This document shows positions 50,077-64,000 of a stretch of DNA of 64,000 nucleotides, piece after piece; position 1 is the stretch's first letter; every line of letters starts with the position of its first letter. Origin of the DNA: Thiotrichales bacterium (lineage in GTDB: Bacteria; Pseudomonadota; Gammaproteobacteria; Beggiatoales; Beggiatoaceae). The stretch is from NCBI GenBank assembly GCA_016744475.1, contig JADGEH010000010.1, forward strand, positions 1 through 64,000, in the 5' to 3' direction. The notes beneath the pieces were generated by a model, which saw only the letters and a program-made list of their open reading frames with translations, was not told the DNA's origin and ran no database searches. The translations under genes were made by a program, and so were the position numbers.

Positions 50077-51555
50077 ATGTCTAAAAAAACACACCGCAGT
50101 GCTTTACCCGCCGATTTTACGCTACACGAGTATCGTATCGACGCCGTGATTGGGCATGGTGGTTTTGGCATCACCTACCGCGCTTGGGATGCACAACTTG
50201 AGCTATGGGTGGCGATTAAAGAATATCTTCCCAACGAATTAGCCGTGCGCGAAGGCGTGAGCACCGTGTACGCCAAATCCAGCACCGATGAAGAAGCCTT
50301 TGACTGGGGCTTACAGCGTTTTATCCTCGAAGCCCGCACCTTAGCGCAATTTAAACACCCCAATATTGTCCGCGTTTTGCGCTTTTTTGAAGCACACCGC
50401 ACCGCTTACATGGTGATGGAATATCATGATGGCGAAAACCTATCCGCCTTGCTCAAGCGCGGAGCCTTAGAAGAAAAGCGCCTGCTAGACATCGTGCAAC
50501 CCATTATGGACGGTTTACAGGAAGTCCATCAAACCGGATTTTTGCACCGCGACATCAAACCCGCCAACATCATTATCCGCAAAGATGGCACGCCTATTTT
50601 ATTGGATTTTGGCGCCGCCCGTTTTGCCATCGGACAAAGAAGTGCCAGCCTCACCAGCATTGTCACCCCCGGTTACGCCCCCTTTGAACAATATGACAGC
50701 AAAAGCGAACAGGGCCCCTGGACCGATATTTACGCCTTGGGCGCGGTCATGTATTACGCCGTCAGTGGCAGTGCGCCCAATGAAGTCGTAGGTCGCTTAA
50801 AACGCGACGACATGCCGCGAGCCGTCGAAGTAGGCAATGGACAATATCGGCGTGAAATTCTACGTGCGATTGATTGGGCATTAGCACTCGACGAAGAAGC
50901 CCGTCCACAAAGCGTGCAGGAATGGCGCGAAGCCATGCTCGCTCCCCCGCTAGAAATTTTGCCGCAAACCGCCATTCCCACGCAGTCCAAAACGCCCATC
51001 AACCAAGACCGCTGGTACAACCTATTCATCGGACTATTAGTCGTGTTAGTGGTGGGCGTGCCGGGTGCTTACTTGCTCTATCAAGAATACCAACAGCCCG
51101 GTTCCTTCAATGCCTTACTTTCCGGCGAATCCTCTCCTACCATCCAACAAGCTGAAGTCGAAATTTTAATTGGTCGCTATTTTGCTGCTAACAGCGAAGC
51201 CGATATTGACAAACTCATTGATTTTTACAGCGAATGGGTGGACTACTACGGCTGGGGACTGGTACGCAAAACCGCGATAGGTGACGACAAGCGCAGCTTT
51301 TTTGCACGCTGGCCCAAAGTACGCTACACCCTGGCAGGTTCCGTAGAACTATTTGATACCGAAAAAAGCAACGAAAAACATGTCATTTTTGATTTAACTT
51401 TTAATGCTCGCAACCCCAACCATGAAGACGGCGTGCGTGTTAGCACCGGCAAAGCCAAGCAAGAATGGCGATTGCGCCGTGAGCCAGAAGGCTTAAAAAT
51501 CGTCTTTGAACGACAAACCATCTACCGACGCGAACACAGTCATACTGATGAATAA
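50077..51555 (+). CDS. Membrane-anchored Ser/Thr protein kinase with extracytoplasmic NTF2-like domain
   Basis: The 492-residue protein has an N-terminal Hanks-type kinase. The glycine loop is IGHGGFGITYRA (25-36), the ATP-binding Lys is K48 in AIKEYLP, the catalytic loop is HRDIKPANI (Asp159), and the metal site is DFGAAR. The kinase looks active. A transmembrane helix lies near 315-334. Beyond it is a domain of about 140 residues of NTF2/SnoaL-like type (KLIDFYSEWVDYYGWG, FFARWPKVRYTLAG). The next gene encodes a second version of this domain and overlaps the stop. Confidence 0.92.
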   Translation: MSKKTHRSALPADFTLHEYRIDAVIGHGGFGITYRAWDAQLELWVAIKEYLPNELAVREGVSTVYAKSSTDEEAFDWGLQRFILEARTLAQFKHPNIVRVLRFFEAHRTAYMVMEYHDGENLSALLKRGALEEKRLLDIVQPIMDGLQEVHQTGFLHRDIKPANIIIRKDGTPILLDFGAARFAIGQRSASLTSIVTPGYAPFEQYDSKSEQGPWTDIYALGAVMYYAVSGSAPNEVVGRLKRDDMPRAVEVGNGQYRREILRAIDWALALDEEARPQSVQEWREAMLAPPLEILPQTAIPTQSKTPINQDRWYNLFIGLLVVLVVGVPGAYLLYQEYQQPGSFNALLSGESSPTIQQAEVEILIGRYFAANSEADIDKLIDFYSEWVDYYGWGLVRKTAIGDDKRSFFARWPKVRYTLAGSVELFDTEKSNEKHVIFDLTFNARNPNHEDGVRVSTGKAKQEWRLRREPEGLKIVFERQTIYRREHSHTDE

Positions 51556-52126
51556 AATAAACGCGATACACCCCACCTCCCTCCCGCTTTGGCGCTGGCT
51601 GCTGCCCTTGTTTGGCGCACTCACGCTGATATTTACCAGCCTGTGGTATCTCACCGGCGCTCAACCCATTTCCCAGGCTCATGCGGAATCCACTGAGACC
51701 GAGAAGCGCCAACAGCTATCGCCCTTAGAGAGCGAGATACAAAGCTTTACCGAAGACTATTTTCAAGTGCTAGGCAGCGGGCAAGTCGATCAACTAATGG
51801 ATTTTTACGCCGATCAAATTGATTACTACACCTGGGGTTTAGTCGATAAAGTGATTGTCGCGCAAGAAAAACAGGATTATTTCGCACGCTGGCCCAAGGT
51901 AGAACAACAGCTCATCAGCGCCATTAAAATCACCCCTGCGAAATCCTCAAAAGACCTGCAAGTGACCTACTTGCTCAGTTTTACCGTTGAAAATCCACAG
52001 CAAAAAGAAGGCCCTAAGCGCATCAGCGGACAAGCCCGCCATAGCTGGCGCTTAACCCCGCACGCCCAAGGCTGGAAAATCATTGGAGAAAAGCAGCGCG
52101 TGCTATCCCGACAACGGGATTATTAA
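51548..52126 (+). CDS. Membrane-anchored NTF2-like domain protein, relative of the upstream kinase C-terminal domain
   Basis: The start at 51548 overlaps the kinase by 8 bp and gives 192 residues. One N-terminal helix (WRWLLPLFGALTLIFTSLWY) anchors an extracytoplasmic domain whose key phrases repeat those of the kinase: LMDFYADQIDYYTWGLVDK against LIDFYSEWVDYYGWGLVRK, and YFARWPKV against FFARWPKV. Overlap and shared domain point to tandem duplication and joint function, perhaps by pairing of the two domains outside the membrane. Confidence 0.85.
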   Translation: MNKINAIHPTSLPLWRWLLPLFGALTLIFTSLWYLTGAQPISQAHAESTETEKRQQLSPLESEIQSFTEDYFQVLGSGQVDQLMDFYADQIDYYTWGLVDKVIVAQEKQDYFARWPKVEQQLISAIKITPAKSSKDLQVTYLLSFTVENPQQKEGPKRISGQARHSWRLTPHAQGWKIIGEKQRVLSRQRDY

Positions 52127-53469: not shown

Positions 53470-56400
53470 ATGAGAATCCCCTTCAAGCCGATGCTTTGCC
53501 CTATCTCATCAATGCCGTTAAATCAAATAATTGAACATACACGGTGCTTTGTATCGTTATTTGGCAGAACACCATCGTTAGATTTTAAGCCGTTAGCGGT
53601 GTTCAGCTTGTTATTCATGGCTTATATGAATCAGGCTTTTGCGCAAACCTGCGTCAGTACAATAGAACCGAATAACCCCGACTCGGAGTTTACTATTCAC
53701 AACGACGGCACAGTGAGCCACTCGGATACGGGCTTGATGTGGGATCGCTGTACTTGGGGACAAACGGGGGCGAATTGTGACAGTGGCAGCGTAAGCACAT
53801 ACACTTGGGAGGATGCGCAACAACAAGCAACCATTGCCAATCAACAAGCCTATAAAGGCTATAGCGATTGGCGACTGCCGACTAAGCGGGAATTACAGTC
53901 TTTGGTGGAGTACCAGTGTTATGAGCCTGCGATTAATACGGTGGCATTTCCAGCCATGCCTTCTACGCCTCTTGCCTCGTTTTGGTCAGGCTCACTTCAT
54001 GCCAACTCTTCAGACTACGCGTGGATCATGTACTTTAATTATGGTTACGTCAGTGACGGCTATCTTAATTACGAGACCTATTATGTCCAATTGGTGCGCG
54101 GCGGACGGTCTTTTAGCCCTTTGCCTAACCAAGCCTCACAAAGCTGCAATGCAGGAGCCGCCGCACTGGATGCAGAATTTGATATTCATACTGATGGCAC
54201 GACCACCCATGCGCGTACCGGCTTAATCTGGGATCGCTGTGCTTGGGGGCAAATGGGAGCAGATTGTGCAATGGGTTCTGCAGATAAATACACTTGGGAT
54301 CAAGCTCAACAGCAGGCTCAATTAGCTAATCAACAAAACTATAAAGGCTACAGCGACTGGCGTTTACCTACGATAGAAGAACTGGTCACCTTCGCTGAGG
54401 AAATGTGTATAGTTCCCACCATCAATACCACTGCGTTTCCTGCCACGCCTTCTAACTATTTTTGGTCAGACTCGCCTCATGCCAGCAGTTCTGGCAACGT
54501 GTGGGGCGTGCATTTTGGTAATGGTGACGACTACGCCAATCTTCCTGGCAACGCCAGCCACGTTCGGCTGGTGCGCGGCGGACAGTCTTTTGGCCCTTTA
54601 CCTGCTGTCCCAATAGCCTTGTTTGAAGTGTCCAGTTCAGATTTAAGCCTCACGGTTACAGCTAACATAGTGGAAGGCAATGCCAGCTATGCTTGGGAAA
54701 TGGTGCATAAATACGACCCCAATGATCGTTACACAGGCGCAGGGCAAAGCACGAGTTTTCAAGTCTCCAGCGCAGGCGAGTATGACATCACGCTCACGGT
54801 TGCCAACCGAGCAGGCAACGATACTTTGACGCAAAGCGTCACGCTCATCGAAGCAGCAAAGTTGTTTTCTTTGAGCTTGACTCAAATAGGCGAAGGTGCA
54901 GTTAGTGGCTCGGGTGATTTTGCAGCAGGAGCTAATGTGACTTTAAGCGCAACACCCGCTGTAGGACATGGCTTTGCAGGCTGGTCGCCTGCCCCTTGTG
55001 CCAACAGCTTTGTTATGCCTGCTAATGAATTAAGCTGTACGGCTACCTTTTCTCCGCCTGCCCCGCAAGCTTTCTCGCTCACCTTGATGCAAACAGGCGA
55101 CGGCACGATCAGCGGCGCGGGTGATTTTATAGCAGGTGCACCTGTGACTTTAACCGCAACACCGGCTGTGGGACATGGCTTTGCAGGCTGGTCGCCGACA
55201 CCTTGTGCCAACAGCTTTGTCATGCCTAGTAATGCGTTAAGCTGTACAGCCACCTTTTCTCCGCCTGCTCCGCAAGATTTCTCACTCACCTTGACGCAAA
55301 CAGGTGAAGGCACGGTCAGTGGCGCAGGTGATTTTGCAGTGGGAAACTATGTCAATTTAAGCGCCACCCCCGCAACGGGTTATCGCTTTGCAGACTGGTC
55401 GCCAGCACCTTGCCAGGAGAGCTTTGCGATGCCTGCCAGTGATTTAGCCTGTCTTGCCACTTTCGAGCTGATATCGACTTCTGGCTTAGGCAAAGCCATC
55501 ATCATCACCGCTTCGGGTTCACACAAAGAAAATACGCTGTTCTCGCGCAGCGAAGAACTCACGCGCAACATGTACCGTACTTTGTATCAACGCGGTTTTG
55601 AACATGAGGATATTATCTGGCTGAACCCGAAAACTTGGCAAGATATCAATGGCAATGGAGCCGATGACGGCGTGGTGGATAATGATTTATTTGATCCAGA
55701 AGCCGCGCTCAATCAGGCGTTTGATACCATGCGCAATTTACAGGCGGGACAGCAGTTTGTGCTGCATATCCATGGTCATGCCTTGCAAGACCAATTAAAA
55801 ATCACCCGTGATTATTGGCTGCCCGCCACTCAGCTTAAGACTTTACTGGATAAAGTACCTACTGGCGTACAGCAAATCGTGATTGTGGATACTTGTTATT
55901 CGGGTTCGTTTTTGGATGAATTGCAGGGTCACCCTGATCGCATTGTGTTGACCGCTTCAGATGCGCAAAGCACGGCTTGGAATGCGAAATATGCGACTTT
56001 TTCCGGCAAATTGATTGAAACCCTGCGGCGTGGCGGTCATGTGGGGGAGGCGTTTCAAGCGACTGAAAACATGATGCGCGACACACCGAAAGTGTTTGGT
56101 GCTCAACGTCCGCAATTAGACGATAACGGCGATGGTGTGTTTTCTTCACAAGATGGCACGCGCGCTGCGCAAGTCGTCATCGGCAAAGACGGATTGCGTG
56201 CCGCAGATGCACCGGAAATAGTGCGAGTGCATGAGCGTTTATCTTTATCTAGTGCTGAAGCGGTGTTGTGGGTGAAAACCTCACCGACAGGCGAACAGGT
56301 GCGCAAAGTACGGGCGACCTTAATCCCGCCGACGTTTGCCGCCGATCATTATGCAGGAGAAGACACCGATTTCGGACGCATTGAGCTGGACATGGGCTAT

Positions 56401-56907
56401 AACTCAGTGCAAGCCCGCTTTGAAGCCGTGCAGCCTTTTAATCAAGCGGGGTTGTGGAAAGTGTTATATCAAGCACAAGGCTTAGATGGCACTTGGTCAG
56501 AACAAGTGAACGGTGAAGTTCAACTCGCCACCCTTAAAGCCGTCAGCATCCAAGCGGTATTGAATCAATCTATTTATCGCGTCGGCGAGCAACTGCGCTT
56601 TGATGTGCAATTGAACGCGCTGGATGACACGACTTATGATGTCTATGCCGCGATTATTTTTCCCGCTGGCTATTTTGTCACCCTGCGCTATCCACTTGAA
56701 TTTAGTTTGCCAGGAACGATTATTCCCTACCAAAGCGAATTGTCTTTTAATCCTTCCAAGCATTTAAATATGATGGATTTAGCCCTGCCACCTGGATTAC
56801 AACCGGGCACTTATAGCGTCTGCGGCGCCCTCAGTCCCGCTGGCAATGATCCTTGGGACATGGCGGCCTGGGTAGATTTTCATTGTGCGGATTTTGATTT
56901 AAAGTAG
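53470..56907 (+). CDS. Secreted multidomain protein with caspase-like (clan CD) cysteine peptidase
   Basis: The 1,145-residue protein has an unusually long leader, with the hydrophobic core near residues 38-57 (cleavage near AFA-QT). Then come two DUF1566/Lcl-type domains (HSDTGLMWDRC...YKGYSDWRLPT), a PKD-like segment, and three InlB-type repeats (GFAGWSPAPCANSFVMP). The peptidase domain (about 675-910) has His768-Gly769 in LHIHGHA and Cys809 in IVDTCYSGSF, the clan CD dyad of caspase, legumain and gingipain types. A C-terminal Ig-like region follows. A GGAG site precedes the start. The substrate is unknown. Confidence 0.85.
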   Translation: MRIPFKPMLCPISSMPLNQIIEHTRCFVSLFGRTPSLDFKPLAVFSLLFMAYMNQAFAQTCVSTIEPNNPDSEFTIHNDGTVSHSDTGLMWDRCTWGQTGANCDSGSVSTYTWEDAQQQATIANQQAYKGYSDWRLPTKRELQSLVEYQCYEPAINTVAFPAMPSTPLASFWSGSLHANSSDYAWIMYFNYGYVSDGYLNYETYYVQLVRGGRSFSPLPNQASQSCNAGAAALDAEFDIHTDGTTTHARTGLIWDRCAWGQMGADCAMGSADKYTWDQAQQQAQLANQQNYKGYSDWRLPTIEELVTFAEEMCIVPTINTTAFPATPSNYFWSDSPHASSSGNVWGVHFGNGDDYANLPGNASHVRLVRGGQSFGPLPAVPIALFEVSSSDLSLTVTANIVEGNASYAWEMVHKYDPNDRYTGAGQSTSFQVSSAGEYDITLTVANRAGNDTLTQSVTLIEAAKLFSLSLTQIGEGAVSGSGDFAAGANVTLSATPAVGHGFAGWSPAPCANSFVMPANELSCTATFSPPAPQAFSLTLMQTGDGTISGAGDFIAGAPVTLTATPAVGHGFAGWSPTPCANSFVMPSNALSCTATFSPPAPQDFSLTLTQTGEGTVSGAGDFAVGNYVNLSATPATGYRFADWSPAPCQESFAMPASDLACLATFELISTSGLGKAIIITASGSHKENTLFSRSEELTRNMYRTLYQRGFEHEDIIWLNPKTWQDINGNGADDGVVDNDLFDPEAALNQAFDTMRNLQAGQQFVLHIHGHALQDQLKITRDYWLPATQLKTLLDKVPTGVQQIVIVDTCYSGSFLDELQGHPDRIVLTASDAQSTAWNAKYATFSGKLIETLRRGGHVGEAFQATENMMRDTPKVFGAQRPQLDDNGDGVFSSQDGTRAAQVVIGKDGLRAADAPEIVRVHERLSLSSAEAVLWVKTSPTGEQVRKVRATLIPPTFAADHYAGEDTDFGRIELDMGYNSVQARFEAVQPFNQAGLWKVLYQAQGLDGTWSEQVNGEVQLATLKAVSIQAVLNQSIYRVGEQLRFDVQLNALDDTTYDVYAAIIFPAGYFVTLRYPLEFSLPGTIIPYQSELSFNPSKHLNMMDLALPPGLQPGTYSVCGALSPAGNDPWDMAAWVDFHCADFDLK

Positions 56908-56951
56908 TTTTTAGTTTGATATTTTAATGAATACGACATAGGAGAATCTGT

Positions 56952-59900
56952 ATGCAAACACATAAACTTATTTTACCCTTTGCTGTTTATTGTTGTACTT
57001 TTCTAGTTTTTCCTGCTTATGCACTAGAAGACAACACCCCTCCTGTATTACAGTCCATTAGCATTACTCCAAATACAGTAGTTGATGAACAGACAGTGGA
57101 TATTTCCGTCAAAGCAACTGATGATTTAGCAGGGATTAAAAACATTTATTTGTTTATTCATAACCCCAATGGACAAGGTGAAAGAAGTGTCTCACCTTTA
57201 AGTTTTAATTCAGCCACTCAATCTTATGAAAGAACTTTTACAGTACCAAAATATGCATTATCAGGGCAATGGTATATTTATCAAATTCAGTTGCATGATA
57301 ATGCTGGAAATGTAAATACCTTAAATCATGGAAATGGCATTAACTCAATATTTCAAGTTAATTCTCGTCAACCTGATAGTACATTACCTGCACTACATGA
57401 TATTCAAATAACGCCTGGTGTCGTCGCCCCTGGACAAACAGTACGAGTTTCTATTCAAGCTTCAGATGATTTATCAGGTATAGATCGAGTAGTTTCTTTT
57501 ATTAATAATCCAAATGGAGATGGTGAACGTTCTGCATCATCAATGACATTTGATAGTGTAACACAGCGTTATATTCGAGATTTTGTCGTGCCTGATCAAG
57601 GTATGTCAGGGCAATGGTATGTACATCAAGTACAAGTCTATGATAATGCGTGGAATACTATTTCACTTGATTATCCTCATGGTATTAATGCAACGTTTAA
57701 CGTCAACTGTGCTGTTCCTTCTGCTTGTGACTCGACTCGCCCTACTTTACATGGAATAGAAATAACGCCTAATGTAGTTTCAGATAATGAGTCAGTGACT
57801 ATTTCTGTGCAGGCAACGGATGATTTATCGGGCATTGCTCGCGTGACATTATTTGTCACTATGCCAAATGGGGATGGAGAGCGTCATACTTATCCTTTGA
57901 CATTTGAAGAAAATACACAACGCTATGTGCGAGTTTATGAAGTGCCTCGTTTTGGACAATCAGGAGAATGGTATATTAGCCAGATTCAAATAGAAGACAA
58001 TGCAGGTAATGAATTAATTTTGCATCATAACAGCGGTATAAATGCGACATTCCAAGTCGGTGAATCGCGCTTAGCAGAAACTATTACAGATACAACAGAA
58101 CGTGAGGAATTAGTCAATGCTGAACGTGCTGCCATTCTTATTTATCCTCGTGGGCAAGGTACTGGTTATAAACAAGAGGTTTCAATTGAGTTTATGGCCG
58201 CCCATATTTACCGCACACTGAAAATGCGTGGTTATAGTAATGAAGAAATCTACTTCTTATCACATAAACCAGATATGGACATCAATGCTGATGGCTTTAT
58301 TGATCGTGACGTAGTTGATGGTCCAGTGACTGTACCTGATTTATCTGTGCCAGGTACAAACCCTAGGGATTTAACCATTGCTGATGTTGAACAGGCATTT
58401 AACTGGGCTAAGCAACAAGGTAGTTTAGATCACCCCTTATTCGTCGCATTTGTGGATCATGCCCTGCCTGAGCAATTGCGGCTAGACCCCTTTAGTGAAA
58501 TGCTGACGGCAACAAAATTAGATGCTTTATTAGATGATTATCAACAAGCAACAGGCAATACAGCCATTGTTTTATTGGAAGCCTGTCATACAGGAACTTT
58601 TTTAGAACAACTGAAGGGTGCTAACCGCATTATTATTAGTGCAACAGATAATCAACTCGCTTACTATGATAACTTAGGTGCTTTTTCTTTTAGTAAATTT
58701 TATTTTGACCACTTACGCAGAGGCGAAGATTTATTCACTGCATTTAATTTAGTCGATCAACGCTTACCTACTTATGGTTACCCATTTGATAAACAATCAC
58801 CTCAATTAGATGATGATGGCGATGGTTTAAACACTTCGCGTGATGGTGTTTTATCTGCTAAATATTGCTTAAATGGCTGCTTTGGTGCTTTATCAGGAGA
58901 AATGACTTTAGAAGTACTAACTACTTCTGCAACTTTAGCATCAGGTCAAAGCATGACACTTAAAACAAAAGTCGGTATTACAGAAGGAAGCATTGCTAAA
59001 GTCTGGGCTTTAGTAATGACACCTGAATCAGCTTCTGAACGTAATGACCAAGGCTTTTCTTTAGCGGCTACACCTATGATAGAAATGCAAAAAAACACTA
59101 ATGGAGAATGGCACGGTCTATTTTCTGGTTATACAACAGCAGGTCATTATGTAATGACCTTCATGGCTCAAGATGATGAAGGCTTTATCACAGCAGCTAA
59201 CCCTATCACATTAACCATGACTGGTGATTCTACTCCATTCAATTCCCCTAAGCTGACTAATATCAGTACACGCTGCTATATCCAAAAAAGTCCTGACAAT
59301 GCCATTGCAGGCTTTGTTGTTGAAGGGACAGGGCAAAAAAAAGTACTGCTACGAGCCATTCGTAGCGGCATTGAAACCAATCCCAATTTTGATTTGTCAT
59401 TAGAGTTATTGCAATTAGTTAATGGCGCATGGAAAAGCCTAGAAACTAATGATAATTGGGGGCAAAGTAGTGATGCCACAGAGATCGGTAGTCTTAGTAC
59501 AAACCTTGTACCCAATAACCTCTACGATGCCGCGTTGATTGTAGCGCTTTCTCCAGGTACTTATACCGCGATAGCGTCACCTTCTAGTAATAACGTATTT
59601 GGTATAGGCGTTGTTAGTGTTGACGACTTAGAACCACAAAGCTCAACCATGCTGACCAATATCAGTGGACGTTGCAAGGTACAAGCAGCGCCGCACAATG
59701 CTGTTGCAGGCTTTGTCGTGAGTGGTGAAGGCTCCATGAAAGCATTGTTACGCGGTATTCGCAGCGCGGCTGATACCAGTGGTTCATATGATCCCAAATC
59801 AGACCTCTATAAAATCACTACCAGTCCTCAACTGCTAGAAAGCAACCAAAGCTGGCAAAGCCATCCACGCGCTCAAGAAATGGCTGCATTGCCCAGCAAT

Positions 59901-60026
59901 CTTGTGCCTGACTATGCAACAGATACGGCTGTTTTACGCGATTTAACCGCAGGCGTGTACACCATTGAAATAAAACCTGAAAGTAATTTTGGAATTGGTG
60001 TAGTAAGCGTGGATGTACTGGACTAA
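56952..60026 (+). CDS. Secreted protein with Ig-like repeats, clan CD peptidase domain and two C-terminal repeats
   Basis: The 1,024-residue protein has a signal peptide (cleavage near YAL-ED). Three tandem repeats of about 110 residues follow (VKATDDLAGI, VQATDDLSGI; SGQWYIYQIQLHDNAGN). The peptidase domain (about 390-630) has His503 in FVDHALPEQ and Cys545 in LLEACHTGTF; the usual Gly after His is Ala, so activity is less certain. Two repeats of about 120 residues close the protein (NAIAGFVVEGTGQKKVLLRA, then FGIGVVSVDDL). The body is visibly more AT-rich than these end repeats. It lies 44 bp after the preceding secreted peptidase gene. Confidence 0.84.
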   Translation: MQTHKLILPFAVYCCTFLVFPAYALEDNTPPVLQSISITPNTVVDEQTVDISVKATDDLAGIKNIYLFIHNPNGQGERSVSPLSFNSATQSYERTFTVPKYALSGQWYIYQIQLHDNAGNVNTLNHGNGINSIFQVNSRQPDSTLPALHDIQITPGVVAPGQTVRVSIQASDDLSGIDRVVSFINNPNGDGERSASSMTFDSVTQRYIRDFVVPDQGMSGQWYVHQVQVYDNAWNTISLDYPHGINATFNVNCAVPSACDSTRPTLHGIEITPNVVSDNESVTISVQATDDLSGIARVTLFVTMPNGDGERHTYPLTFEENTQRYVRVYEVPRFGQSGEWYISQIQIEDNAGNELILHHNSGINATFQVGESRLAETITDTTEREELVNAERAAILIYPRGQGTGYKQEVSIEFMAAHIYRTLKMRGYSNEEIYFLSHKPDMDINADGFIDRDVVDGPVTVPDLSVPGTNPRDLTIADVEQAFNWAKQQGSLDHPLFVAFVDHALPEQLRLDPFSEMLTATKLDALLDDYQQATGNTAIVLLEACHTGTFLEQLKGANRIIISATDNQLAYYDNLGAFSFSKFYFDHLRRGEDLFTAFNLVDQRLPTYGYPFDKQSPQLDDDGDGLNTSRDGVLSAKYCLNGCFGALSGEMTLEVLTTSATLASGQSMTLKTKVGITEGSIAKVWALVMTPESASERNDQGFSLAATPMIEMQKNTNGEWHGLFSGYTTAGHYVMTFMAQDDEGFITAANPITLTMTGDSTPFNSPKLTNISTRCYIQKSPDNAIAGFVVEGTGQKKVLLRAIRSGIETNPNFDLSLELLQLVNGAWKSLETNDNWGQSSDATEIGSLSTNLVPNNLYDAALIVALSPGTYTAIASPSSNNVFGIGVVSVDDLEPQSSTMLTNISGRCKVQAAPHNAVAGFVVSGEGSMKALLRGIRSAADTSGSYDPKSDLYKITTSPQLLESNQSWQSHPRAQEMAALPSNLVPDYATDTAVLRDLTAGVYTIEIKPESNFGIGVVSVDVLD

Positions 60027-60105: not shown

Positions 60106-61620
60106 CTACGGAATGGTACGGTATTTATTTTTCTGAAAATCTATAACGATATGAACTGAGTTATACGACACACTTTTTTTTGACGGTTAACTTTTCAGAC
60201 ATCATATCAATCTGCCTCGTACAACTGACTTATGATCCCTATATATGTTGCATGAGCATACGAGTTTGAATGCATGTGTATTGACCGCAATGGTCAAAAT
60301 GGCATATGAGAACAAGGTACACTCACAGCGCAAAACAGATTCACAAAATGGAGAAAACAGATTGAGAATCCCATCTAAGCCCTCTACTGGCTGATAGCTC
60401 TTGCACCTCCCCTCACTTATAGCGCAAACCTGTGACAGTTCAATAGAACCCAATAACCCCGACTCGGAATTTAGTATTCACAACGACGGCACAGTGAGCC
60501 ACTCGGACACAGGCTTGATGTGGGATCGTTGTACTTGAGGACAAACGGGGGGGAATTGTGAAAGTGGTTTTGCGAGTAGATACACTTGGGAAAATGCGCA
60601 ACAACCCGCACAACTCGCCAATCAACAAGCCTATAAAGGCTACAGCGACTGGCGTTTACCGACGATAGAAGAACAGGCTACCCTCGCTGAGGAAACCTGT
60701 TTTAACCCAGCCATCAATACCACTGCGTTTCCTACTACACCTTCTGACTGGTTTTGGTCGAGTTCGTCCTCTGCCTATGCTTCTCACCCCGCGTGGGGCG
60801 TGGGTTTCGAGAGTGGTAGCGACCACGGCTTAGGTAGTTACTCCAATAGTCACGTTCGTTTGGTGCGCGGCGGACAGTCTTTTGCCTTTTTACTGAGATT
60901 ACAACAAACAAGCAATGGCACAATCAGCAGCAGCAACAGTGCTTTCTTTGCAGGCGCAACAGCCAATCTCACCGCCACGCCCAACCGAGGATATGTTTTA
61001 AGTGGTTGGTCTCCCGCCCCCTGTGCTGCCTCGTTCACCATGCCCGCCAACGGTTTAACCTGCACCGCCACGTTCACCAAAAGCATCAAAGCCCATTTCT
61101 CTTTAACCCCTTCGACAGGCGCACCACCGCTGACAGTCCGTCTGGATGCCAGCGAAGCCTCTGATCTTGACGGATACATCACAGGTTACCGTTGGGCCGT
61201 CGAAAGGCGAACGCTGGCAGGCATGATTAGCGGTCATACCTTTACTCAAACGGGTGATTACACGGTATCTCTCACCGTGACTGACAATGAAGGTTTTACC
61301 GATACCCAGCAGCACAATATTCGTGTTTCACTGCCGTTAAAGGCTCAATTTTCCATGACACCCGCTCAAGGGTCTGCGCCATTGTCTGTGGCCTTGGATG
61401 CCAGTGCTTCTACAGGGTTAAACATGGCCAGTTATGCGTGGCGCAGTTCTGATGGGCAGCAAGCCCGTGGACAGCAGGCTATTTTGACTTTGACCCAAGG
61501 TGGCACACAGACGATCACTTTAACAGTGACAGACGACCAAGGTGCTACTCACAGTGTGCAGCGTTCTGTGGTGGTGGACAGTCATACACCGCCCAATGCG
61601 GTTTTTTCGCTATCGGCTAA

Positions 61621-61779
61621 GAGCCTATACGAAGATGGGGAATCGAAGCGAAAATGCGCTATTTTGAGACAGGTTTTTCGGTTTTTTAAGGCGAATAGCG
61701 GGCTATTTAACGAAAAAAAGCGGAAAACCGGGCCAAAAGGGCGGGTTTGCAGCCGATTATCCCGTTTTCGTATAGGCTC
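61621..61779 (+). repeat. Family 1 MITE-like element, copy I (159 bp), in frame inside a PKD domain
   Basis: It has perfect terminal repeats and TAA on both sides. It adds 54 codons including the duplication. Removing it restores VFSLSANSGAAPLTVSADAS, a canonical PKD opening. The element contributes a basic peptide including VFRFFKANSGLF and KKRKTGPKGRVCSRLSRFRI. Confidence 0.96.
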
Positions 61780-63224
61780 TAACAGTGGCGCCGCACCTTT
61801 GACGGTAAGTGCGGATGCCAGCGCTTCTTCAGATAGCGATGGCAGTGTGGTGCGTTATGTGTGGCAAAGTTCACATGGGCAAACCGCCAACGGCCCGAAA
61901 CCCACGTTCAATTTTACCGCCCCCGGTAGCTATACCCTGACGCTGGCAGTGACCGATGATGGCGGCGCAAGCCGTAATACTTCGCAAATCATTCAAGTAC
62001 ACAGCAGCAACGCAGGCGATGGGCATTGCATCGCCATCGTGCCTGTGGTGAAAAACTTTGGTGCCGTGGTGCCTAATAAAAGCTCTTTTCCAGAAAGCTT
62101 TAACCTATTGAACACCTGTCAAACCGACACCCAAGTGAAAAGCATTTCGATAGGGGGCACTCATCCTGGACAATTTGAGTTATTGAGCAATGATTGTTCA
62201 GGGACGCGCTTGGCTTATCAAAAAAGCTGTGCCGTGAGCATGGCGTTTAATCCTTCCAGTTTGGGCGATAAGCAAGCCCGTTTGACCGTGATGTCTGGTG
62301 CAAATAATCATTTACTGGAAACGCCGCTGACTGGACGCGGCGCGGTGGCACCGCCGACCGCTTGCATTACACGCATTGCGACGAATAGTTTAAGCGCTAC
62401 ACCTGATGTTCGTTGTTCCAGTGACAGCGATGGCTCGATTGTGCGTTATGACTGGGCTATCAGCAGTGCCGTCGGCCCCACGGAGCATTGTCTGGAATGC
62501 AGCTTAAACCACACCTTCCATTTCTCTGCACCGGGTATCTATACCGCGACCTTGACCATCACCGATAACGACGGCAATAGCACCCACACGAGTCAGACTT
62601 TTGAACTCAGCTATGGCAGCCTTCGTTTGAGCAACATCAGCGTGCGCTGTCATGTTCAGCCTAACCCTAAAACAGCGATTGTAGGTTTTGTGATTGAAGG
62701 TACAGGCACGAAAAAAGTGTTGCTGCGTGGCTTAGCCGTGCCGTCCATGTCGCCTGGTTTAGACTTGCATATCAGTCTTAATAGATTCATCAACAACACC
62801 TGGCAAGAAATCCTCAGCAACGACAACTGGATGCAAAGCTCGCGTGCCAATAAAATGACCGCCTTACCCAGTCACTTAGTACCGCGCTCAAGCAACGATG
62901 CCGCTTTACTGGTTGATTTAAAACCTGGGGTGTATACCCTGATTGCAGCGCCTCAAGGCGCCAGCGGTATCGGCGTGGTGAGCGCAGATGATTTAGATGA
63001 AATGAATCCCAGCAGCCGTTTAGTCAACATCAGTGGGCGCTGCTCTGTTGAAGACGGCAACGGCAATGCGATTGCGGGTTTTGTCATTGAGGGCGATGGC
63101 AGCTTGCAAACGCTGTTACGCGGTATGCGCACTGCCAGCATGGACTTATCAGGATCGCTCAACCCACGTTTAGAACTGATGCAGATATACCCTGGCAACC
63201 CCGTGGCGGATGCTTTAGACAATA

Positions 63225-63381
63225 GACTTGTCCGGGTTTAAACGCCGTAGCGAAAAGCAGCGGGATTGAGTGGTTTTTTTCGTTCATTTGAGGCGAATAG
63301 TCATTCTATTTAACGAGAATGAACGGGGAAAACCGCCAATATCCGTTGTTTTGTAGTCGGTGTTTTAAACCTGGAGAAGTC
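63225..63381 (+). repeat. Family 3 element (157 bp) disrupting the secreted-protein pseudogene
   Basis: It runs from GACTTGTCCGGGTTTAA to TTTAAACCTGGAGAAGTC with TA on both sides. With the TA duplication, 159 bp are added, which keeps the host frame on both sides in register, but TAA at 63239-63241 stops translation. Confidence 0.9.
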
Positions 63382-63627: not shown

Positions 63628-64000
63628 ATGCGACATTTAAAATATTACTTATTACTGAGCACTCTCAGTTTACTGTATACGCTGGCTAATCCAAGCTGGG
63701 CGGTGACTTTTAAGCAAGTCAGTGCGGGGGATTACCATACCTGTACGGTGTTGAAAGAGGGCGAAGCCGTGTGCTGGGGGAATAATAATAAAGGACAGGC
63801 TTCGCCGCCCTTGGATTTGATGAGCGAAGTGGCTGTGGGGGATGAACACTCTTGCGGTATTAAAAAAGCTGATCATCAAGTGATTTGCTGGGGAGATGAT
63901 AGTCGAGGACAAAAAACGCCTCCTAGCGGTGCTTTTCTTCAACTCGTTGCCGGTACTGATTATACCTGCGGTTTAAAATCTGATGGCAGCATCGCGTGTT
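63628..64000 (+). CDS. Exported RCC1-repeat protein, 5' part (continues beyond window)
   Basis: ATG at 63628 has AAAGGAG 9 bp upstream. A signal peptide (YYLLLSTLSLLYTLANPSWA) is followed by RCC1-type beta-propeller repeats: VSAGDYHTCTVLKEGEAVCW, VAVGDEHSCGIKKADHQVIC and VAGTDYTCGLKSDGSIAC, each with a Cys pair. In bacteria such propellers are usually surface or secreted binding proteins. The reading frame is open to the last base. Confidence 0.88.
   Translation, partial: MRHLKYYLLLSTLSLLYTLANPSWAVTFKQVSAGDYHTCTVLKEGEAVCWGNNNKGQASPPLDLMSEVAVGDEHSCGIKKADHQVICWGDDSRGQKTPPSGAFLQLVAGTDYTCGLKSDGSIAC

Follow-up and report, generated by a model that had tools for sequence, protein, structure and literature searches.

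Two adjacent genes for predicted exported C13-like peptidases with exchanged N-terminal modules in a Beggiatoaceae genome

The first 64,000 nucleotides of contig JADGEH010000010.1 (the window), from a Thiotrichales bacterium of the family Beggiatoaceae (assembly GCA_016744475.1), contain two neighbouring genes, here called P1 and P2, that are predicted to encode exported cysteine peptidases. Both lie on the + strand, separated by 44 bases, remain open over the intervals listed in Table 1, and carry an AGGAG ribosome-binding site just 5' of the ATG. Each protein starts with a signal-like segment, that of P2 ending in AYA, and continues with an N-terminal module, a peptidase domain, an immunoglobulin (Ig)-like region and one or two C-terminal domains (CTD1 or CTD2); the PKD match of P1 is weak and falls under the Pfam cut-off. 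An initial annotation had proposed two adjacent exported clan CD peptidases with a His-Cys pair, and the open reading frames (ORFs), the signal-like N-termini and the aligned dyad residues agree with that proposal at the sequence level. Our analysis suggests that both enzymes belong to the legumain branch of the clan.

Table 1 Coordinates of P1, P2 and their parts in the window
Feature	Position	Strand	Content or basis
P1 gene, 1145 amino acids (aa)	53470..56907	+	signal-like segment, 2 Lcl_C, PKD, 3 InlB repeats, C13 peptidase, Ig-like, CTD1
P1 hydrophobic export-signal-like segment ending AFA	53596..53643	+	hydrophobicity test, sequence
P1 two Lcl_C (DUF1566) domains	53707..54591	+	PF07603, 2.5e-64, two stretches
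P1 three InlB B-repeats	54865..55473	+	PF18998, three stretches
P1 predicted C13 (legumain-fold) peptidase domain	55480..56184	+	Pfam, family profile, model, structure comparison
P1 first acidic EF-hand-like loop (D725-D732)	55642..55671	+	
P1 catalytic residues	His770 = 55777-55779; Cys809 = 55894-55896	+	
P1 second acidic loop, DDNGDG, EF-hand type (884-889)	56119..56136	+	
P1 Ig-like beta-sandwich C-terminal to peptidase	56185..56532	+	all-beta in model; boundaries approximate
P1 CTD1, C-terminal-end domain	56533..56904	+	
P2 gene, 1024 aa	56952..60026	+	signal peptide, 3 Ig-like, C13 peptidase, Ig-like, 2 CTD2
P2 three Ig-like repeats	57030..58061	+	Pfam DUF7743, Big_7, Big_3_2
P2 predicted C13 (legumain-fold) peptidase domain	58113..58910	+	Pfam, model, structure comparison
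P2 first acidic loop (443-456)	58278..58310	+	
P2 catalytic residues	His503 = 58458-58460; Cys545 = 58584-58586	+	
P2 second acidic loop, DDDGDG	58809..58826	+	
P2 tandem C-terminal domains CTD2a + CTD2b	59244..60023	+	

Both peptidase domains match Pfam Peptidase_C13 (PF01650) at scores of 26.9 bits (P1) and 23.6 bits (P2) against a gathering cut-off of 22.8, and a profile built from 42 homologous sequences matched asparaginyl endopeptidases (AEPs)/legumains best among PDB sequences (3.4e-6). AlphaFold2 was used to model P1 residues 671-1145 (mean predicted local distance difference test (pLDDT) score = 89.5) and P2 residues 388-1024. The first 370 residues of the P2 model mostly scored 84-98 per ten-residue block, with three blocks at 72-82, and its CTD2 part was poor (mostly <40). 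The caspase-like fold put forward in the initial annotation was found in both models. When these were compared with 993 and 1000 chains, the top match in each case was an AEP/legumain (P1: Z = 23.2, root mean square deviation (rmsd) = 2.7, 218 aligned; P2: Z = 22.1, rmsd = 2.6, 220 aligned). Glycosylphosphatidylinositol (GPI) transamidase gave Z = 18.5-21.5, while metacaspases and caspases together reached about 17-20, under legumain (19.7 for metacaspase 9 against the P1 model, and approximately 17-18 for caspases).

Because legumain/AEP ranks first in both the profile and the structure comparison, P1 and P2 are predicted to be C13-like, ahead of caspases and metacaspases, and the earlier term “caspase-like” holds only in the broad clan CD sense. 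Neither protein matched the metacaspase family PF00656 (C14B) at E<=1, and the score of P1 against the EACC1-associated caspase family NF047832 was 31.3 bits, below the NCBIfam curated cut-off of 140. No C25 Pfam match was obtained for either protein, and gingipain was absent from the structure matches listed, which by itself excludes nothing. The region C-terminal to the P1 peptidase is nearly all beta in the model, lacking the activation peptide and helical LSAM domain of legumain type.

We aligned 123 near-full domains, drawn from 148 non-redundant matches in the fetched loci after omission of 25 with <170 model positions. The His-Cys dyad is intact in 106 of them, which argues against a chance pattern in P1 and P2. 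His770/Cys809 of P1 and His503/Cys545 of P2 fall in invariant columns. The catalytic residues named in the initial annotation were thus correct for Cys809, His503 and Cys545; its His768 is unconserved and must give way to His770, the second His of the P1 HGH motif. An acidic residue stands two positions before the catalytic Cys in 92% of the intact domains. Such a residue is common to Arg/Lys- and Asn/Asp-type enzymes, and the Arg/Lys-specific cleavage anticipated earlier is not indicated over Asn/Asp.

Of the 106 intact domains, 65 have Gly directly after the catalytic His, 38 have Ala, two have Ser and one has Leu. Ala was initially taken to be special to P2; it occurs in P1 as well, and we therefore call the two proteins C13-like rather than classical legumains. 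His-Ala is spread across the clade of P1 and occurs in part of that of P2, requiring eight changes by parsimony on a tree computed with FastTree only and containing long branches. In the same tree P1 and P2 belong to different clades, one with 42 rows and the other with 15, and are therefore probably old paralogues; a recent tandem duplication was rejected on this ground.

The acidic stretches DDNGDG (P1) and DDDGDG (P2) lie after the catalytic motifs, as first described, and form part of an EF-hand-type 12-residue loop; a second loop of this kind precedes it in both proteins (residues 725-737 of P1 and 443-456 of P2). In P1, loop 1 (725-732) and loop 2 (884-889) follow the D-x-[DN]-x-D-G pattern of EF-hand loops. 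The loss of the catalytic Cys in the paralogues on contigs C208 and C8 had raised the idea that loop 2 (DDxGDG) disappears together with that residue. This was rejected, as loop 2 is present in 80/106 intact and 13/17 dyad-broken domains (48/106 and 7/17 under a stricter 12-residue pattern). Loop 1 was found in 78/106 intact versus 7/17 broken domains, a difference that was non-significant in independent pairs (8 pairs, median p 0.25). Arg824 of P1 is kept in 105/106 intact and 17/17 broken domains, and we read both loop 2 and Arg824 as probably structural.

Searches with the domain profile identified, besides P1 and P2, five close paralogues in the same genome (contigs C19, C45, C208, C8 and C22) and weaker peptidase-domain copies on contigs C91 and C181. 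The latter (L023, L035) are FG-GAP-like (DxDxDGDxD) repeat proteins whose distant peptidase-domain relative has neither of the two catalytic residues. Within the order, 27/42 genomes match at 1e-10, with up to 14 matches in one genome. Within the class, 24/370 genomes match, 21 of them outside the family; among these 21 only G232 exceeds 100 bits, the best matches of the others reaching 44-70 bits. The named relatives (45 loci) are Thiomargarita, Ca. Parabeggiatoa, Ca. Marithrix and Thiotrichaceae metagenome-assembled genomes (MAGs), together with scattered MAGs of Desulfobacteraceae, Sumerlaeota, Omnitrophota, Hydrogenedentes and Verrucomicrobia. The distribution of homologues indicates a peptidase family that is much enlarged in giant and filamentous sulfur bacteria. 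A hydrophobic N-terminus of the signal-peptide type was detected in 73/85 ORFs (>=450 aa) versus 62/1700 internal control stretches. One P1-type gene of a same-genus genome (L157; G003, contig C64) is split over two ORFs and has probably decayed.

The initial annotation had described adhesive modules on both proteins. DUF1566/InlB in P1 and the Ig-like repeats in P2 were recovered; as a general feature such modules appear to be the minority, the usual N-terminal partner in the family being, by domain matches, a beta-propeller. Among 43 full-length relatives, picked by size and lineage from 94 listed, Peptidase_C13 was detected in 36 (E<=1e-4), Reg_prop in 21 and WD40 in 11. The N-terminal modules are exchanged between close relatives. 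The closest relative of P1 (L038/L067) shares 63% identity over the last 475 residues, comprising peptidase, Ig and CTD1, and has WD40 repeats in place of the Lcl_C, PKD and InlB repeats; another, L042, has Lcl_C. Four relatives of P2 carry Reg_prop propellers where P2 has Ig repeats. A link to diversity-generating retroelements through Lcl_C was also considered: the genome has eight RVT_1 matches, none of them on the window's contig, and no template/variable repeat search was made.

The C-terminal domains vary as well. CTD1 is located <=25 residues from the C-terminus in 84/84 distinct cases and <=3 residues from it in 72. It occurs on peptidases in 72/84 cases, with weaker matches elsewhere, and a role as a general sorting signal was accordingly demoted to a minor idea. 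Weak CTD1 matches were found in the P2 relatives L089, L097, L099 and L065, P2 itself having CTD2. No Pfam match over cut-off was obtained in the CTD2 part of P2. This domain of approximately 130 aa is C-terminal and tandem in 15/18 ORFs, mostly large non-peptidase proteins of the window's genome, and 15/18 of the ORFs carrying it have no peptidase; examples lie at 59244-60023, 62624-63238 and contig C121:67729-68595.

Seventeen of the 123 domains lack the His or Cys of the dyad, through 10-11 loss changes on the FastTree tree. In the genome of P1 and P2, the C208 copy has exchanged Cys for Ser and the C8 copy Cys for Ala, and both are still long open frames with full architecture. Each of the 14 ORFs that encode two or three copies of the peptidase domain (L060, L080, L081, L083, L096, L098, L101, L102, L104, L105, L108, L178, L179 and L180) has both kinds of dyad, one or more intact and one or more broken, and in 13 ORFs exactly one dyad is intact; these ORFs are not fully independent, as L178-L180, L102/L108 and L098/L101 are sets that each share a genome or MAG. 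Scoring was by eye for the domains of L178-L180 and for six other partial domains. P1 and P2 themselves have a single peptidase domain. The pairing of intact and broken domains recalls that of c-FLIP with caspase-8.

A third gene of the row (60539-63241), with Lcl_C, InlB, PKD and CTD2, is broken: it starts with an in-frame stop, is interrupted by a short mobile element and ends in a disrupted CTD2. The 161-base element (61620-61780), which resembles a miniature inverted-repeat transposable element, has 20-base terminal inverted repeats and at least approximately 40 genome copies at >=95% identity (83 matches, counting both orientations), a lower bound because 40 of 619 first-look candidates were scored. 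Directly behind the cluster, between position 63628 of the window and about 68600 of contig C121, lies the gene of a large protein with RCC1 repeats that also has PKD-like, Lcl_C-like and CTD2 regions. At 50077-52126, a gene for a Ser/Thr kinase is overlapped by the one that follows it, and the two resemble each other in their C-terminal part (WGLV...FFARWPKV), which gives the appearance of a duplication.

Taken together, we propose, with a probability of roughly 0.6, that both proteins leave the cell by the Sec route, bind calcium and act as cysteine endopeptidases of the C13 legumain fold, aimed by swappable binding modules. Each protein would be exported and then folded with structural Ca2+. 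Its N-terminal module, which is DUF1566 with InlB in P1, Ig in P2 and a beta-propeller in most relatives, would attach to a target located in the medium, on neighbours or on the sheath of the cell itself. To judge from its dyad and fold, the His-Cys domain would be active and cleave the protein held there; the C-terminal domain may anchor or sort the enzyme. Four points speak against this proposal. The PF01650 matches are partial (about 79/258 positions) and near the cut-off; Ala and not the clan CD Gly follows the catalytic His in both proteins; the hydrophobicity test is a proxy and not a signal-peptide predictor; and loop 2 is kept in dead domains, so that any Ca2+ bound there would be structural and does not prove a Ca2+-activated enzyme.

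An unlikely alternative is that the proteins are exported sensor-effectors for self/non-self recognition or conflict, in which the swapped modules pick the target, the protease acts and dyad-broken copies regulate intact ones, making an extracellular counterpart, free of nucleoside triphosphatases (NTPases), of the propeller-caspase systems in multicellular bacteria. The exchange of modules between close catalytic relatives and the high copy number per genome favour it, as do the tandem arrangement of genes, with 8 pairs of adjacent same-strand genes in a set of 73 peptidase ORFs from 60 regions, and the mixture of intact and broken dyads within single ORFs. However, ordinary surface proteins commonly show modular shuffling too, P1 and P2 have one peptidase domain each, no linked NTPase, toxin or immunity gene was found, and a scan of both proteins against the anti-phage defence families of PADLOC-DB returned no match at E<=1. 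A related and more speculative proposal, to which we give rather low odds, is a Beggiatoaceae repertoire of exported sensor-proteases that would combine a His-Ala legumain-type effector, Ala being a modified oxyanion-side residue, with exchanged recognition modules and with dead sister domains or paralogues exerting control within one chain or between chains.

Extracellular proteases for nutrient scavenging or, as the initial annotation suggested, predation would also have export signals and binding modules, and sequence cannot separate this reading from the targeted endopeptidases proposed above; we consider it rather improbable, as the neighbouring genes looked at show nothing pointing to lysis or uptake. 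It is quite doubtful that P1 and P2 are transpeptidases or sortases that cleave C-terminal domains of the CTD1/CTD2 kind and link proteins to the surface, in the manner of two kinds of C13 enzyme, GPI transamidase and the peptide asparaginyl ligases, or with a function like that of PorU in the type IX system. The top structural matches include ligases and GPI transamidase (Z 18.5-23), CTD1 is strictly C-terminal and CTD2 sits mainly on non-peptidase proteins, but hydrolytic legumains score equally and CTD1 is mostly on the peptidases themselves. That the exchange of Gly for Ala makes both catalytically weak or dead binding proteins is equally doubtful. In its favour, the review PMC4357240 states that every clan CD family conserves this Gly, and dead paralogues exist in the same genome; against it, Ala retains the backbone NH and accompanies an intact dyad in two separate clades.

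A bacterial C13 branch of which the filamentous and the largest sulfur bacteria have many exported copies in each genome offers targets for enzymology: whether His-Ala works, whether Ca2+ is needed and which residue is cut. The intact and dead copies form a natural series for pseudoprotease control; the sensor-protease repertoire, if it existed, would give multicellular bacteria a form of control analogous to that of caspase-8/c-FLIP or the inflammasome, but extracellular and NTPase-free. The abundance of caspase-like proteins in Thiomargarita has been interpreted with programmed cell death in view, a reading that would change if part of them were exported C13 enzymes.

Most of what is known of family C13 concerns eukaryotic legumain, plant ligases and GPI transamidase, and we found no direct paper on bacterial legumain or C13 in the open-access library searched. 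Earlier work reports 59 “metacaspases” in Thiomargarita nelsonii (PMC4853749), surveys prokaryotic metacaspases with WD40 or signal-like helices (PMC3501461) and describes conflict systems in which multicellular bacteria combine propellers, caspases and NTPases (PMC7159879, PMC10907252); “legumain” and “C13” are absent from the main text of PMC7159879. Like these prokaryotic metacaspases or orthocaspases, P1 and P2 belong to clan CD, in a group expanded in filamentous bacteria and having WD40 partners, but they lack the PF00656 domain and resemble legumain more closely in structure. Gingipain R (C25) is secreted and has two half-domains in one enzyme, whereas P1 and P2 have one domain. It is likewise Ca2+-containing, with an Ig-like domain behind the peptidase, according to PMC4357240, but P1 and P2 have no Pfam match to its family. 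The catalytic subunit of GPI transamidase (PIG-K/GPI8) is of family C13, whereas P1 and P2 are bacterial and, as far as seen, without a membrane complex. The closest likeness is to legumain (MEROPS C13), whose Asn/Asp specificity derives from a zwitterionic S1 pocket (Arg44, Ser216 and Asp231): the fold, the His-then-Cys order, the EAC/DTC-x-SG motif and export are alike. P1 and P2 differ from it in the Ala after His, the two EF-hand-like loops, the large N-terminal binding modules and an Ig-like domain plus CTD in place of the death-domain-like LSAM C-domain.

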